Source of the DNA: Brumimicrobium aurantiacum
GTDB taxonomy: Bacteria > Bacteroidota > Bacteroidia > Flavobacteriales_D > Crocinitomicaceae
Length of the DNA: 64,000 bases
NCBI RefSeq assembly: GCF_003402975.1
Contig: NZ_QURB01000008.1
Coordinates: 1-64,000, forward strand
Direction: 5' to 3'
The translations under genes and the position numbers were made by a program. The notes under the pieces are model-generated. The model saw only the letters and a program-made list of their open reading frames with translations, had not been told where the DNA came from and did no database searches. Positions 28,853-37,074 of this stretch are shown piece by piece (position 1 is the first letter of the stretch; every line of letters begins with the position of its first letter).

Positions 28853-30652
28853 ATGGAAATTAGAAATATTGCGATTATCGCGCACGTTGACCACGGAAAA
28901 ACAACATTGGTTGACCGTATAATCGAAGCAGGAGAAGCATTTAGCGAAAGAGATCGTGAAAATGCAGGTGAATTGATGATGGACAGTAATGACCAAGAAA
29001 GAGAAAGAGGGATTACTATCGTATCAAAAAACGTTTCTGTAAATTATAAAGGAACAAAAATTAACATCATTGACACTCCTGGTCACGCCGATTTTGGTGG
29101 TGAGGTAGAACGTGTATTGAACATGGCTGATGGTGTTTGTTTGTTGGTTGATGCCTTCGAAGGACCAATGCCACAAACGCGTTTCGTTCTTCAAAAAGCA
29201 TTGCAACTTGGTTTGAAACCATTAGTTGTTGTGAATAAAGTAGACAAAGACAACTGTACTCCTGATGAAGTTCATGAAAAAGTTTTTGACTTGATGTTTG
29301 AGCTTGAAGCGAATGAAGATCAATTAGATTTTGAAACTGTTTATGGTTCTGCAAAGAACAAATGGATGTCTAAAGATTGGAAAAAGCCAACAGATACTAT
29401 TGAACCACTTTTGGACACAATTTTGGAGTATTTCCCGCCAGTGAAAATTGAAGAAGGAAATACACAAATGTTGATTACTTCATTAGACTTTTCTTCTTTC
29501 GTTGGACGTATCGCTATTGGTCGTTTACAAAGAGGTGAAATTAAGCCAGGAATGCCAATCGTACTTACGAAACGTGATGGTGCACAAGAGAAACACAAGA
29601 TTAAAGATGTGTTTGTTTACGAAGGTACAGAGCGTATCAAAGCAGACAGCGTTCAACCAGGTGATATTTGTGCGGTAACAGGAATTGAAGGTTTTGAAAT
29701 CGGAGATTCTATTTGTGACGCTGAAAATCCAGAGCCTTTGGAGACAATCACAATTGATGAGCCTACAATGAGTATGATGTTCTCAATTAACGATTCGCCT
29801 TTCTTTGGTAAAGAAGGTAAGTTTGTAACATCTCGTCACATTCAAGAACGTTTGAATAAAGAGTTGGAGAAAAACTTGGCACTTCGTGTTGAGCAAACTG
29901 AAAAAGCAGATAAATGGTTGGTATTCGGACGTGGTGTAATGCACTTGTCTGTATTGATCGAAACAATGCGTCGTGAAGGTTACGAATTGCAGGTTGGTCA
30001 GCCACAAGTAATCATCAAGGAAATTGATGGTGTAAAATGTGAGCCAGTTGAGGAATTGACAATTGATTTACCAGAGCAATTTTCTGGAACTGCTGTTGAA
30101 GCGGTAACGAAACGTAAAGGTGAAATGACAAATATGGAAGCGAAAGGTGACCGTATGATTGTTAACTTTATTGTTCCTTCAAGAGGTATCATCGGATTGC
30201 GTAACTATTTATTAACGCAAACTGCTGGTGAGGCAATCATGAACCATAGATTTGTTGAGTTCCAAAAGTACAAAGGAGAAATCCCTGGACGTATTAATGG
30301 ATCTTTGATCTCTATGGAGCAAGGTGCTGCTATTCCTTATTCTTTGAATAACTTACAAGACAGAGGTAAATTCTTCGTTGATCCTAATGAAGATATTTAC
30401 GGAGGTCAGGTAATTGGAGAAAACACTAGACAAGGTGACTTGGTAATTAACGTTACGAAGACTAAGAAAATGTCTAACATGCGTTCTTCAGGAGCTGATG
30501 ATAAAGTAAGAATTGCACCAGCGCTTAAAATGTCATTGGAGGAAAGTCTTGAATATATTCAATCTGATGAGTATGTTGAGCTAACACCAAGTTCATTGAG
30601 AATCCGTAAGATTCTTTTAGATGAAAATGCACGTAAAAGAGCAAAAAAATAG
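28853..30652 (+). CDS. typA: translational GTPase TypA/BipA
   Basis: 599 residues, full length. GTPase motifs: AHVDHGKTT (10-18), [28 protein letters not shown]; then the EF-G-like domains II, III and V and the BipA-specific C-terminal domain with [12 protein letters not shown]. TypA is a ribosome-binding GTPase needed for 50S assembly and growth at low temperature or stress. Cotranscribed with the RNA helicase upstream, which suits a cold- or assembly-related pair. A good terminator follows 36 bp after the stop. Confidence 0.97.
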
Positions 30653-30685
30653 ACCTTGAAGTAATTTAAGACTATAGAATATATT

Positions 30686-30716
30686 GAACGGCAATCGAAA
30701 GGTTGCCGTTTTTTTT
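30686..30716 (+). terminator. rho-independent terminator after typA
   Basis: CGGCAA (30689-30694) and TTGCCG (30703-30708) form the stem, followed by eight T residues. A decayed copy of this terminator precedes the second lipoprotein copy at about 35617-35645. Confidence 0.87.
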
Positions 30717-30785
30717 GTCTGATCACCAACCCTTTGGAAGGCATATTCGTATAGTTTTAAATCTAATAATGTTAATGTATATAAT

Positions 30786-31103
30786 ATGAAACGAACACTT
30801 AAATTAGCAACAATCTCACTGTTTTCAATCGCTTTCTTCTCTTGCGAATGCCGACAAGAAGCGAGTGGTATTATCCTAGATAAAAACACAAATGAACCCA
30901 TCGATAGTGTTATCGTTCGAGGAGAAGAAGGAATGGATGGTGAAGTTTATTCTGCAGAAGGTGGAAGCTATGCAATTGATGGTGGAATGACGGGCGCAGT
31001 GAAAGGCTGTCCAGACAGCAAAGTATCTTTCAGTAAGGAAGGATATGAAACGATGTATGTTACCAATCCAAATGAAAAAACGATTTATTTAGTGCCGAAT
31101 TAA
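30786..31103 (+). CDS. small lipoprotein with carboxypeptidase-regulatory-like fold, copy A
   Basis: 105 residues: lipoprotein signal (MKRTLKLATISLFSIAFFSC), lipidated Cys20 followed by ECRQEASG, then an Ig-like domain (DKNTNEPIDSVIV, a GSYAIDGGMTG turn, FSKEGYETMYV). It should be an outer-membrane lipoprotein; function unknown. The mature part is identical to copy B at 35714-36043 except for Gly/Asp at one position. Over 30843-31096 the DNA differs from 35783-36036 at only two bases, while the signal-peptide parts have diverged, which indicates recent gene conversion. It has no further genes in its transcript. Confidence 0.8.
   Translation: MKRTLKLATISLFSIAFFSCECRQEASGIILDKNTNEPIDSVIVRGEEGMDGEVYSAEGGSYAIDGGMTGAVKGCPDSKVSFSKEGYETMYVTNPNEKTIYLVPN
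30843..31096 (+). repeat. 254-bp direct repeat, copy A
   Basis: Identical to 35783-36036 except at two positions (T/A near 30869 and G/A near 30960). The offset is 4,940 bp. It covers the mature part of the lipoprotein gene and stops sharply at both ends. Confidence 0.92.
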
Positions 31104-31124
31104 GTATAAAAGGCTAATTTCTTT

Positions 31125-31187
31125 ACCTAAGATCGATATCTCCAAAGACTTCAGTATCTGGGTTTTATTAATATATCGAACTTAGGT
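31125..31187. repeat. 15-bp imperfect inverted repeat, possible shared terminator
   Basis: ACCTAAGATCGATAT (31125-31139) pairs with ATATCGAACTTAGGT (31173-31187), one mismatch, with a 33-nt loop. It lies between the ends of two converging reading frames. A T-rich stretch follows on the plus strand. Confidence 0.55.
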
Positions 31188-31194
31188 TCTTTTG

Positions 31195-32049
31195 TTATTC
31201 TGGTTTTTTAAGGGCATTTTGAATACCACTTAAATGATTATTAAAATCCATTAATTGTGAAATGATTTGTCCCATTTCATTCGTATTGGATAGACCTTTC
31301 AATTTATTGTTTTTCAAAAACGTTGTTTTGATCGATTCCCAGCGCTTTTCCTCATTATCCGTTAAGGTCTGACTCAGTTCTTTATATTTTAATAGATTGG
31401 CTTCTGCTTGTCCAGTTAATGTTTGTGATTCACTTTCATAATGCGTGTGAAGTAGTCGTTTTAGTTCATCGTTGTTCATAATAGAAACAATCTTTTCAAC
31501 CAATTTATTCATGTCTCGATATGAACCTTGTAATTTAAATGCGGGTTCAGTTCTATAAGAATCTTCCATTGCAGCACTTTTGATATATGCCTCGTTAACT
31601 TTCAATACCGTGTCTCTTACCTTAATTACTTTTTCAAGAACGGAAGAATAGTCTTGTAGGTCTTGTTGACTATGAGAGGCTTTAAGTTCTGCCTGTTGAT
31701 CAGTTTGTACCTGTCTAATTAAGGCGTATAAGTCATCCATTGATTTATTCCTCAACTGACTTAAAGTTGAATTAGCTGTTAATGAGTTTTCAATTAAACT
31801 CAGTTCAAATAAGTCTTTCGTGTCTCCAATAATGTCACCTAAATTGTAAATGTCTGCCCTATTGGCAAGCATATCAGGAATTCTAAATCGCTCACCACTT
31901 TCAGTATATGGGTTTCCGGCCATGATTACACTGAACTTTTTACTTCTCAAGTCATACGTTTTAGGCTTACCATTGAATACTCCTTCAATTCGTCTTGTAC
32001 CGTCAGAAAGGGAAATGAATTTTTGTAAAAACTCAGGATTACCATTCGA
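31195..32049 (-). pseudogene. 5'-truncated remnant of a large DNA-repair ATPase (AAA type)
   Basis: The open frame runs from just after a TAA at 32050-32052 down to 31195 (284 codons) with no ATG near its beginning. The sequence starts SNGNPEFLQKFISLSDGTRR, then VIMAGNPYTESGERF and IPDMLANRADIYNLGDI, matching the C-terminal end of the very large (about 1,600-residue) proteins annotated as DNA-repair ATPases in Bacteroidota. ATPase motifs and more than 80 percent of the protein are missing. I read it as a stranded 3' fragment left by a rearrangement whose break is near 32050. It lies between the two lipoprotein repeats. Confidence 0.75.
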
Positions 32050-32192
32050 TTAGTATACATAAACAATTATTAAGGAATATTGATGAGTTAAAAAATAATC
32101 TCATTTTTCAAACACCAATTTTGATAATTAATAACCAAATCTACGATGAATCGAATGGGGTTAATATTTTTGAGTAGAAAAGTTTGTTTGTT

Positions 32193-32236
32193 TATCTTCG
32201 GTACAAAATAAAAAATAGAACCCTTCGTTATATTTG
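32193..32236 (+). promoter_or_regulatory. candidate promoters of the DUF4249/receptor operon
   Basis: Two -7 candidates: TATCTTCG at 32193-32200 with TTTG 20 bp upstream (32169-32172), and TATATTTG at 32229-32236. The second would start transcription just before the ATG at 32255 and argues against the TTG start at 32234. Confidence 0.45.
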
Positions 32237-32254
32237 AAAACTATTTACATTCAA

Positions 32255-33271
32255 ATGGGGAAATCAATAACTTTTATTTTTACGATATTAATATGTATAA
32301 TTTGCTATTCCTGTCAAAAGGAGGTATCTATTGAAGTGCCAAACGCAGAACCAAAATTAGTAATGAGGTCAGAAATTACAAATTGGCCAGATTCTTTAGA
32401 TACAAGTTCTGGAGTTGTTTATTGGGACTCCGCTTATCCTCAAAAAGTACCAAGTTTCTTGGTTATGGGCTTGAGTTCTTCTGTTAATGAAGAGCCAATT
32501 GATAATTTAGTGGATTGTAAAGTTGTGCTCAAAAAGAATAGTACTGTTTATGATACCATTTTTTATGATTCTGAAAAGGAGTATTACCCTTTATTTGTCG
32601 ATGAACAAGAGTTTCCTGAATCTGGAGATGAAATAGAGGTAAAAGTGATCTATGGAGATAAATTTGTGTCGAGTAGATCTAAAATACCTGGTAAAGTGAT
32701 GATTAAATCTGTTGATACTAGCTCTGTTTATGCTTTATTTATTAATGAAAATCAGTTGTATGGTTCTTCAAAATTAACTTTTGAGGATCCCCCAGATGTA
32801 GATAATTATTATGAAATAGTGGTTACGCAAATAAGTTCTCCAGATGCTGAATTAGTTAAATATTCTTTAGGAACTAATGAGGCATTTATTACAGGGTTAA
32901 GTCATCACCCTTCTAATTTTAATGGAAGTACCCCTTCTACAACAAAATCATTGCTTTTTACGGATAAGACATTTAATGGTGAGGAAAAATCTGTAAGTTT
33001 TTATTTCCCAATGGCTACTTATATGGGGAATGGTCCTATTGACTTTAACCATATAAAATTGAATTATCACCTTAGAAATGTTTCTAAAGAGTATTATGAA
33101 TTTGAGACAAGCAAAAGGATTCATTTAATAACAAGTGATATGAGTCAATTGTTTGGTGCCTCTGAACCACAAAATGTCACAGGTAATATAGAAAATGGGC
33201 TTGGTGTTTTGGGTCTTTATTCTCATTCTCAAAAGAATTTTTTCTTTCCGGAGAGAACTATAAATTTCTAG
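32255..33271 (+). CDS. DUF4249 lipoprotein, partner of a TonB-dependent receptor
   Basis: 338 residues from the ATG at 32255: lipoprotein signal ending CIICYSCQKEV, then a beta-rich DUF4249 body (Ig-like N-terminal part with VVLKKNSTVYDTIFYD, C-terminal part with YHLRNVSKEYYEFETS). DUF4249 proteins are outer-membrane lipoproteins usually encoded directly before a TonB receptor and are thought to help capture its ligand. Here the receptor starts 2 bp after the stop, a clear two-gene operon. Ligand unknown. Confidence 0.85.
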   Translation: MGKSITFIFTILICIICYSCQKEVSIEVPNAEPKLVMRSEITNWPDSLDTSSGVVYWDSAYPQKVPSFLVMGLSSSVNEEPIDNLVDCKVVLKKNSTVYDTIFYDSEKEYYPLFVDEQEFPESGDEIEVKVIYGDKFVSSRSKIPGKVMIKSVDTSSVYALFINENQLYGSSKLTFEDPPDVDNYYEIVVTQISSPDAELVKYSLGTNEAFITGLSHHPSNFNGSTPSTTKSLLFTDKTFNGEEKSVSFYFPMATYMGNGPIDFNHIKLNYHLRNVSKEYYEFETSKRIHLITSDMSQLFGASEPQNVTGNIENGLGVLGLYSHSQKNFFFPERTINF

Positions 33272-33273
33272 TT

Positions 33274-35589
33274 ATGCTTAGATTATTTCTTACACTTTCT
33301 ATCCTTTTTTCTGTTGGTTTTTCTGTTGCTCAAAAAAAAGTGCTTAGTGGATATCTTTTTGATAAATCTTCAAATGAGACGATTATTGGTGGTGCTGTTT
33401 TTAGCTTAGAATCAAAAAATGGAGCTACAACGAATGAGTATGGATATTACAGTTTGAGCTTAGATGAAAATGATTCTTTAGTGAAAGTTAGAGCCTTTGG
33501 TTTTAAAGATACTACAGTTATAATTTCAAACATTGAGAACATTAATTCATTCAATGTTTATTTAAAAAGTAAAATCACGAATTTTGAGGAGGTAGAAGTT
33601 ATTGGCAAAAAGAGTGATATAAAAGCCGATGAAATGGGAGTAATCTCTATTCCTATGGAAGATGTCAGAAGATTACCCAATTTATTTGGTGAGGTTGATA
33701 TAATAAAAACCTACCAATTAACACCAGGTGTTGAATCGGGAGGAGAAAACTCTAGTAATTACTATGTTAGAGGAGGGGGTGCAGAACAAAACTTGATGCT
33801 TTTAGATGATGTTCCATTATATAATGTTTCTCATTTTGGAGGATTTTTCTCAGTTTTTAATGCTGACATAATAAAAAGTACGAAATTGATGAAAAGTGGC
33901 TTTCCTGCTGAATACTCTGGAAGGTTATCTTCGGTGTTGGATGTAAGGATGAAGGAAGGGAATTCCAAAGAATTTCAAGTGCAAGGTGCTGTCGGTTTAT
34001 TATCTACAAGACTTTCAATAGAAGGACCAATCATTAAAGATAAAGCATCATTTATTGTCTCAGGTAGAATAAATCCACTGCCAATTTTTAAGATTTTAGG
34101 AGAGGGTATAGATTATCGATTTAATGATTTGAATGCAAAATTAAACTTCAACTCTTCGGATAATAATAAGTTTTACCTTAGTTTTTATCGTGGAAGAGAT
34201 AATTTGAAAATTAATTCGGATAATGAAGGTCTTTCTACATTAGACAATAAGCTCTCATGGGGGAACACAATGTTAGCTTTTAGGTGGAATCATAAGTTTG
34301 GAGCGAGATTGTTTAGTAACACAACTGTTTACTTAACCGATTATAAATATTATGAAGAGTTTCGTTTTGAAGAAGAAACTGAGAATTCACATCAAGAGAT
34401 GAACAATAAACTCACTACAGGAGTTCGAGATTATGGATTTAAAAATGATTATTCGTTTTTTATTAATGACAAGTTGAATCTGCATTTTGGAGTGAATGCA
34501 ATTTACCACGACTTTAATCCAAATGATATTGAATATAGTCAAAAGGGAAGTGAAATTGAAGATTTAGAGCGTAATCAACTTAGTCAATTATTGACCTTTG
34601 AAAGTGGAGCATATGCCGATATGGATTTAGATTATAATTGGTTTTCTCTAAAAGGAGGGCTGCGTTACTCTAACTACTCCGTTGAGGGTGCAAATTATAG
34701 TAATCTTGAACCAAGAGTAGTCTCCAGTCTGAATTTTCTTAAAACTTGGTCTCTCAAGTATTCTTATACAGTTATGCATCAATACATTCATTTATTATCT
34801 TATTCTGGGACAGGTCTGCCTTCTGATTATTGGATGCCTACAAATAATGAGATACCACCATCAAGAGGAGTTCAACATTCAGTTGGTTTATACAAATCAA
34901 TCAATAAGGATAAATATGTTGTAAGTCTAGAAGGATATCACAAAACAGCAAACAACGTGATTAGTTTTAAACCAGGCAAATCATTGATGGGTTATGTTGA
35001 TGAATGGGAAGATTTAGTAGAAAAGAATGGTGAAAATAGAGCTTATGGAATAGAATTCCTAGCTCAAAAAAAGAAAGGAAAATTAACGGGTTGGATAAGT
35101 ACAACTGTTTCGAGATCATTATTGAAATATGAGACTTTGAATGGAGGAAGAGAGTTCCCTTTTAAATATGATCGTCCTTTGAGTGTGAATATAGTTGGGA
35201 TTTACAAGTTAAATAAGAAAATTGACCTATCAGCAACATGGAATTATGGTTCAGGTTATCCGCTAACTTTGGCAAATGAAATTTACACTTACGACGGTGA
35301 CGATATTTATCATTTTGAAGGGATTAATAGTCAAAGGATGAGAGACTATCATCGTTTAGATATTGCTTTTAACCACACTAAAGAGACGAAGTGGGGTGAA
35401 AGAACATGGACAATTAGCATCTTCAATTTATATGGTAGAAAAAATCCGTATTACTATTTTTACCAACATGATTTAATCCCAGTTCAAACTGAGTTTAGTA
35501 CTTCATACGAAAAAGGAGAGTTAAAATTATACCAACAAAGTTTCTTTGGCTTTTTTCCATCGTTTAGTTATAGTTTTAAGTTAAAGTAA
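33274..35589 (+). CDS. TonB-dependent receptor with N-terminal regulatory-like domain
   Basis: 771 residues: signal peptide ending SVAQ, a carboxypeptidase-regulatory-like domain (about 22-95), plug (about 105-225, with GVESGGENSSNYYVRGGG and LMLLDDVPLYNVSHFGG) and a barrel to the C-terminus (FFPSFSYSFKLK). This plug type (YYVRGG, DDVPLYN) is the one usually paired with DUF4249 lipoproteins, as here. It imports an unknown ligand across the outer membrane. The pair sits inside the 4.9-kb segment bounded by the two lipoprotein repeats and may have moved together with it. Confidence 0.92.
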   Translation: MLRLFLTLSILFSVGFSVAQKKVLSGYLFDKSSNETIIGGAVFSLESKNGATTNEYGYYSLSLDENDSLVKVRAFGFKDTTVIISNIENINSFNVYLKSKITNFEEVEVIGKKSDIKADEMGVISIPMEDVRRLPNLFGEVDIIKTYQLTPGVESGGENSSNYYVRGGGAEQNLMLLDDVPLYNVSHFGGFFSVFNADIIKSTKLMKSGFPAEYSGRLSSVLDVRMKEGNSKEFQVQGAVGLLSTRLSIEGPIIKDKASFIVSGRINPLPIFKILGEGIDYRFNDLNAKLNFNSSDNNKFYLSFYRGRDNLKINSDNEGLSTLDNKLSWGNTMLAFRWNHKFGARLFSNTTVYLTDYKYYEEFRFEEETENSHQEMNNKLTTGVRDYGFKNDYSFFINDKLNLHFGVNAIYHDFNPNDIEYSQKGSEIEDLERNQLSQLLTFESGAYADMDLDYNWFSLKGGLRYSNYSVEGANYSNLEPRVVSSLNFLKTWSLKYSYTVMHQYIHLLSYSGTGLPSDYWMPTNNEIPPSRGVQHSVGLYKSINKDKYVVSLEGYHKTANNVISFKPGKSLMGYVDEWEDLVEKNGENRAYGIEFLAQKKKGKLTGWISTTVSRSLLKYETLNGGREFPFKYDRPLSVNIVGIYKLNKKIDLSATWNYGSGYPLTLANEIYTYDGDDIYHFEGINSQRMRDYHRLDIAFNHTKETKWGERTWTISIFNLYGRKNPYYYFYQHDLIPVQTEFSTSYEKGELKLYQQSFFGFFPSFSYSFKLK

Positions 35590-35713
35590 GCTTGAAAAAT
35601 TAGAAATGGAAATGACGATTATCGAAAGTTTGCCGTTTTTTTTTGTTGAATACCAACCTTTTGGGTTTCTAAATCGTTTAGAGGGTAAATCTAATATCTT
35701 TAAATTATTGAAC

Positions 35714-36043
35714 ATGAAACTAGCCAAATACTACACCATTAAACTAGCCACTTTTTCAATTGCTTCTGTACTTTTCCTTTCCTGCGAATGCCGACAAGAA
35801 GCGAGTGGAATTATCCTAGATAAAAACACAAATGAACCCATCGATAGTGTTATCGTTCGAGGAGAAGAAGGAATGGATGGTGAAGTTTATTCTGCAGAAG
35901 ATGGAAGCTATGCAATTGATGGTGGAATGACGGGCGCAGTGAAAGGCTGTCCAGACAGCAAAGTATCTTTCAGTAAGGAAGGATATGAAACGATGTATGT
36001 TACCAATCCAAATGAAAAAACGATTTATTTAGTGCCTGAGTAG
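35714..36043 (+). CDS. small lipoprotein with carboxypeptidase-regulatory-like fold, copy B
   Basis: 109 residues from the ATG at 35714; a TATCTTTA -7-like motif at about 35694 makes the upstream start at 35606 unlikely. Lipoprotein signal ending ASVLFLSC, then the same mature domain as copy A (one residue different). The signal-peptide region and leader have diverged, but the leader retains TCGAAAG-TTGCCG-T-run and ACCAACC, homologous to the typA terminator and leader in front of copy A. This suggests copy B derives from the typA-adjacent locus and that the coding part was later homogenised. Confidence 0.8.
   Translation: MKLAKYYTIKLATFSIASVLFLSCECRQEASGIILDKNTNEPIDSVIVRGEEGMDGEVYSAEDGSYAIDGGMTGAVKGCPDSKVSFSKEGYETMYVTNPNEKTIYLVPE
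35783..36036 (+). repeat. 254-bp direct repeat, copy B
   Basis: Partner of 30843-31096; two mismatches in 254 bp. Recombination between the copies would delete the ATPase remnant and the DUF4249/receptor operon. Confidence 0.92.
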
Positions 36044-36148
36044 AGGAGAAGTTAATAAATTCTTTACTCTATTTTTGTGTTATTTATTTTTACTGTTGAC
36101 TGCATTTAAGTGAATTCGGAATCTTCTCGTTTAATTGTCCTATATCAA

Positions 36149-36179
36149 TTGTCAATTGAATTTTAAAACATTATTTTTG
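36149..36179 (+). promoter_or_regulatory. folD promoter
   Basis: TTG at 36149-36151, a 20-bp spacer and TATTTTTG at 36172-36179; transcription should start near 36186, close to the start codon at 36196. Confidence 0.6.
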
Positions 36180-36195
36180 CAAAAACATATTCGTG

Positions 36196-37074
36196 ATGCA
36201 AATTTTAGATGGTAAGGAGACTTCAAAAGCGATTCGACAAGAATTAGCAGAAGCAGTAGAGGCAAGAAAAGCAAAAGGACAAAAGATTCCTCATTTGGCA
36301 GCTGTACTCGTTGGAAACGACGGTGGTTCGCTAACTTATGTTGGGGCAAAAGTGAGGGCTTGTAAAGAAATTGGATTTGAAAGTTCATTATTTCACCTCG
36401 AAGATAGCATCACAGAAGACGAATTGTTGGCAAAGGTTCACGAATTGAATAACGATGACGAAATTGATGGATTTATCGTACAGTTGCCACTTCCAAAACA
36501 CATCGACGAAAAGAAAATTACTTTAGCAATTGATCCTAAAAAAGATGTGGATGGTTTCCACCCAACAAATTTAGGAAATATGGTTTTGAATCTTCCTGGA
36601 TTCTTACCAGCGACTCCTGCAGGAATGTTAGAGCTTTTCAAAAGATATGACATCGAAACTTCAGGAAAACACTGTGTCGTAATTGGACGTTCGCACATCG
36701 TTGGTTCTCCAATGAGTATCTTGATGGGAAGAAGTGCTAACCCTGGAAATGCTACAGTTACTTTAACACATTCGAGAACACAAAACCTTAAAGAATTAAC
36801 ACTTCAAGCGGATATTATTATCACAGCAATTGGTAAACCAAACTTTTTAACTGCTGACATGGTGAAAGATGGAGTAGTGATAATGGATGTTGGAATAACG
36901 CGTGTTGAAGATGCCAGCAAAAAAAGCGGTTATAAAATCACTGGTGATGTAAATTTCGAAAGCGTTGCAGAAAAAGCTTCTTACATTACGCCAGTTCCAG
37001 GTGGAGTTGGACCAATGACAATTGTTTCTTTGATGATGAATACGCTAAAAGCAATGGAAATAAATCATAAATGA
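36196..37074 (+). CDS. folD: bifunctional methylene-THF dehydrogenase/cyclohydrolase
   Basis: 292 residues from the ATG at 36196. All FolD motifs are present: [14 protein letters not shown] with the catalytic Tyr and Lys, [22 protein letters not shown], the NADP-binding [10 protein letters not shown] and the C-terminal [11 protein letters not shown]. It interconverts 5,10-methylene-THF, methenyl-THF and 10-formyl-THF, feeding purine and fMet synthesis in the cytoplasm. The length is typical. The gene is monocistronic with its own promoter; the leader is very short (about 10 nt). Confidence 0.97.

Follow-up and report, generated by a model that had tools for sequence, protein, structure and literature searches.

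The typA-folD interval of Brumimicrobium aurantiacum contains two small lipoprotein genes, A and B, in direct orientation and separated by 4.94 kb (Table 1), and the question raised by this locus is how their mature coding regions can be almost identical when the sequence just upstream of each is clearly diverged. The window, i.e. the whole stretch of DNA that was analysed, is 64,000 nucleotides long, and the comparison set consisted of ten Brumimicrobium genomes, namely the window genome (G000) and nine others. Named relatives (B. glaciale, B. salinarum and an uncultured isolate) agree with the assignment to this genus. The best explanation, considered very probable, is that sequence was copied from the typA side in an older event and that the mature region later underwent gene conversion.

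Table 1. Coordinates of the features in and around the typA-folD interval of the window
Feature	Position	Strand	Details
typA	28853..30652	+	ORF; orthologues throughout the 10 genus genomes, those of the other nine at 83-93% aa
typA terminator	30686..30717	+	GAAA-loop hairpin with T-run; -16.1 kcal/mol, z -4.8
Lipoprotein gene A	30786..31103	+	105 aa, lipobox FFSC; single orthologue at the same place in G001, G004, G009
Homogenised tract, copy A (mature lipoprotein codons)	30843..31096	+	differs from copy B at 2/254
DUF3686-type DNA-repair ATPase gene, C-terminal remnant	31195..32046	-	~281 of 1612 aa
Start of sequence common with the typA-folD interval of G003	32037..32170	+	77% to G003; abuts ATPase remnant
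DUF4249 lipoprotein gene	32255..33271	+	PF14054 E 2e-19; 75% aa to the G003 gene in the same interval and orientation
TonB-dependent receptor (CarbopepD_reg_2 and Plug domains)	33274..35589	+	85% aa in G003, same interval
Hybrid terminator (upstream of copy B)	35615..35645	+	GAAA loop, T-run; hairpin lost, -0.7 kcal/mol
Lipoprotein gene B	35714..36043	+	109 aa, lipobox FLSC
Homogenised tract, copy B	35783..36036	+	2/254 bases unlike copy A
folD	36196..37074	+	directly follows typA-lipoprotein in G009 and G004

Region-by-region alignment of the two copies bears out the tracts, and the divergence of the signal-peptide codons beside them, that had been described in an earlier note on this DNA. 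The mature regions are identical at 252/254 bases, the exceptions being a synonymous difference in a Gly codon (T at 30869, A at 35809) and a Gly/Asp replacement (G at 30961, A at 35901); exact matches extend to 135 bp at most. Identity begins at the codon for the lipid-bearing Cys of the lipobox and ends just 5' of the last sense codon, these edges being also the limits of alignable sequence between A and B. By contrast, 58/84 aligned bases (69%) are identical from the terminator loop to the ATG, 37/57 (65%), plus gaps, in the signal-peptide codons, and 25/53 on the 3' side (Fisher exact test of the mature region against leader and signal peptide, p = 6e-21). The match between the leaders is nevertheless 8.7 standard deviations above shuffles, which implies that they are truly duplicated; the tract is therefore a stretch of abrupt-edged near-identity inside more diverged homologous flanks, as expected of gene conversion. 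In agreement with this, the two paralogues are closer to one another (92% amino acid identity) than to their orthologues (46-51%). No further copies of the gene were detected in the 3.4-Mb draft genome (22 contigs). The beginning of copy B is spanned by a 24-nt imperfect direct repeat (35702-35749), a possible source of its longer signal peptide.

The lipoprotein gene is absent from six of the ten genomes, single in three (G001, G004 and G009) and present twice only in the window genome. Each single orthologue is found directly after typA, where the earlier note had proposed to look for a lone copy; the gene order is typA-lipoprotein-folD in G009 and G004, while another gene separates the lipoprotein gene from folD in G001. 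No second copy, and none of the equally divergent pairs that the same note had named as contrary evidence, was found in any of the nine other Brumimicrobium genomes, nor was any two-copy relative found among 200 genomes of the family. G003 is without the lipoprotein gene; its typA-folD interval holds the DUF4249 and TonB genes, oriented as in the window, plus others. An IS1595-type transposase gene (L038:13233-14132) lies in that genome between typA and DUF4249, where other species have the lipoprotein. The TonB homologue of G004 is at another locus and is not followed by this terminator. The ATPase remnant in the window is 91% identical in amino acids to an intact gene of 1612 aa that G002 carries 5-10 kb upstream of folD, with the two genes oriented to each other as in the window; the remnant is cut at ~32040, where the G003-like sequence starts. 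More generally, the gene content of the typA-folD interval (28853-37074; L035-L046) differs in nearly every Brumimicrobium genome, with lengths from 0.6 to >30 kb, and this variety marks it as a region where genes are often gained and lost, possibly an insertion hotspot. Towards the window's left end, 19-402 and 1425-2150 encode two related proteins sharing MRYKYLEW..EDYRE, apparently paralogues.

An older episode can be traced in the terminators. A hairpin orthologous to that of typA follows typA in G001, G002, G003 and G009, and the typA terminators of relatives fold at -15 to -19 kcal/mol. G001, G002 and G009 each have a single terminator of this type (CGATTATCGAAAGG...), invariably behind typA; G003 and the window genome each have two, one following typA and the other following the TonB receptor gene. 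Generic terminator reuse was ruled out, as the typA-type hairpin is confined to these sites in the genomes matching the pattern; a looser pattern gave one other similar site in the window genome (C2:30427). In the A terminator, with arms ACGGCAATC (30688-30696) and GGTTGCCGT (30701-30709), three inner stem pairs are altered on both sides and pairing is retained, whereas the B terminator has the right-hand half only of these changes. Its left arm (ACGATTATC, 35615-35623) matches the ancestral GCGATTATC at 8/9 positions and that of A at 6/9, and its right arm (GTTTGCCGT, 35628-35636) matches that of A at 8/9 and the ancestral or G003 arms at 4/9. The hairpin after TonB in G003 is intact (-14.4 kcal/mol).

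Hence, although TCGAAAG, TTGCCG, the T-run and ACCAACC do recur upstream of both copies, as the earlier note had observed, its view that the left stem arm of B had decayed has to be turned around: this arm is the ancestral one, and the right arm is foreign. Judged on about nine bases per arm, the B terminator joins an ancestral left arm to an A-type right arm, leaving a dead hairpin. Copies A and B have no similarity left of the loop (z -1.1) and a strong match right of it, which places the junction in the GAAA loop; as the right arm of A makes sense only with the left arm of A, the sequence right of the junction would have come from the typA side. The typA-side copy, previously suggested as the donor, is thus retained as the probable source of an older event, with the terminator now read the other way round. 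This does not extend to the recent 254-bp tract, the direction of which is not readable from the terminator because the accompanying leader is ~30% diverged, making the event older than the tract. The orthologues (~46% amino acid identity) are likewise uninformative for polarising the two differences within it.

The contrast in age is considerable. Between A and B the mature regions have a dS of 0.038, while between G000 and G003 the values are 0.64 for typA, 0.91 for folD, 1.37 for DUF4249 and 1.76 (near saturation) for TonB. As the terminator is double at the same two places in both of these genomes, the simplest reading is that the repeat, if inherited, is older than their split. The split may predate copy B itself, since no recognisable lipoprotein leader follows the TonB terminator of G003 (z ~1). 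A short ORF with a signal-like start at that position was considered as a lipoprotein pseudogene and rejected, its leader not scoring above shuffles against A or B. That the leaders are ~30% apart while the mature regions are nearly identical implies that the latter were homogenised recently; the tract is younger than the duplication, whether the comparison is with the leaders or with the repeat shared with G003 (dS 0.64-1.8).

These results favour gene conversion over a simple new duplication, as the earlier note had argued. Had terminator, leader and gene been duplicated together once, and fairly recently, the leader and signal peptide would have to have diverged fast while purifying selection maintained the mature region, which would suit the tolerance of signal peptides to change, the existence of two copies only and the clear homology of the leaders. 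Selection on the protein does not shield synonymous sites of the mature region, yet only one of ~54 has changed (P ~1e-7 for at most one change under the leader-like divergence of ~30%), and orthologues only 46-51% identical argue that the mature protein is not slow-evolving; this alternative is thought highly improbable. If selection favoured two mature products that are identical but differently expressed, a form of concerted evolution for dosage, this could account for tract edges that coincide with the mature protein, and with its terminator lost B could come under the TonB operon. However, the edges fit the limits of alignable sequence equally well, and it is there that conversion tracts are expected to end; moreover, the gene is missing from six of the ten genomes of the genus and single in three, such that the selection suggested in the earlier note is unsupported and seems distinctly improbable.

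Copy B might instead have arrived with the DUF4249-TonB unit by horizontal transfer from another Brumimicrobium, its mature region being converted afterwards. The unit is patchy in the genus and abuts the broken ATPase gene at ~32040, but the leader of B is much nearer to that of A than to any relative's, and the A-type right arm of the terminator implies that at least this part is local, making such an origin rather improbable. An assembly artefact, in the form of a collapsed or misjoined repeat, might be suspected given that the genome is a draft in 22 contigs, that near-identical repeats of 254 bp are classical places for a misjoin, and that G009 and G004 have folD directly after the lipoprotein gene. 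It is regarded as extremely improbable: the copies retain their two differences and share no exact run above 135 bp, G003 independently has DUF4249, TonB and the terminator in the same interval and orientation, and a misjoin cannot turn diverged copies identical.

The preferred course of events, an older copying followed by conversion, would run as follows. Copy A, after typA, holds the place of the single orthologue of relatives. Sequence copied from the typA side would have been joined, at its left end, to the GAAA loop of a terminator that stood behind the TonB gene beforehand, and would either have created copy B or overwritten its 5' part, leaving a terminator of ancestral left arm and A-type right arm; this would then mark either an old conversion tract or the site where B was first pasted in. 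Much later, in what would be a separate event, RecA-type interlocus gene conversion between the direct repeats would have homogenised the mature coding region, extending to edges beyond which the copies were too diverged to pair. As the intervening terminator no longer folds, copy B could be read from the TonB operon. That a tract ending inside the hairpin replaced one arm, destroyed the DUF4249-TonB terminator and placed B under the operon, a regulatory capture arising as a by-product of the conversion, is a somewhat unlikely extension.

Signal peptides are cleaved off in the standard lipoprotein pathway, and mature A and B would consequently differ only at the Gly/Asp position and the last residue (Asn/Glu). 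The mature protein is predicted to form a beta-sandwich (AlphaFold2, pLDDT 81), the model matching transthyretin-like domains and the SusC N-terminal extension (PDB 5aq0, E 1.1e-4; 9hfj, E 1.8e-4; TMt 0.74-0.81). Against Pfam CarbopepD_reg_2 the copies score 13.6 and 16.2 bits, below the gathering threshold of 32.2, and the lipoprotein is predicted to be a small free-standing protein of transthyretin-like, CarboxypepD_reg-type fold. From fold and neighbourhood, it might be guessed to be a partner of a TonB receptor. The Capnocytophaga surface-export motif, C-X-K-(D/E)2-X after the lipid-bearing Cys (PMC5080379), is absent in that form, both mature proteins starting CECRQEASG.

Interlocus gene conversion is an ordinary, known kind of bacterial event, and the biological weight of this case is modest because the lipoprotein has no known function; what is unusual is the readable scar in the neighbouring terminator. 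Where the two arms of a hairpin differ in ancestry, one end of the copied stretch and the probable direction of copying are preserved, and such a structure could serve as a general marker of tracts ending in terminators. As with tufA and tufB of Salmonella (PMC5485169), two paralogues on the same chromosome may be kept alike by non-reciprocal transfer, with identity stopping at coding-sequence boundaries. However, the tuf genes encode the highly expressed EF-Tu and are inversely oriented at a distance of 762 kb, whereas here a dispensable lipoprotein is encoded by direct repeats separated by 4.9 kb, and the signal peptides are not part of the tract. Paralogues closer than orthologues also characterise the recurrent concerted evolution of prokaryotic duplicates (PMC6053082), although those cases mostly last >500 million years and recur, while the present one is seen in one genome only. 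With respect to the product, the mature lipoprotein shares its predicted fold with the SusC N-terminal extension and transthyretin-like domains (PDB 9hfj, 5aq0, 6ytc), but what in SusC is the N-terminal part of a TonB receptor is here a free-standing lipoprotein, scoring below the Pfam gathering level.
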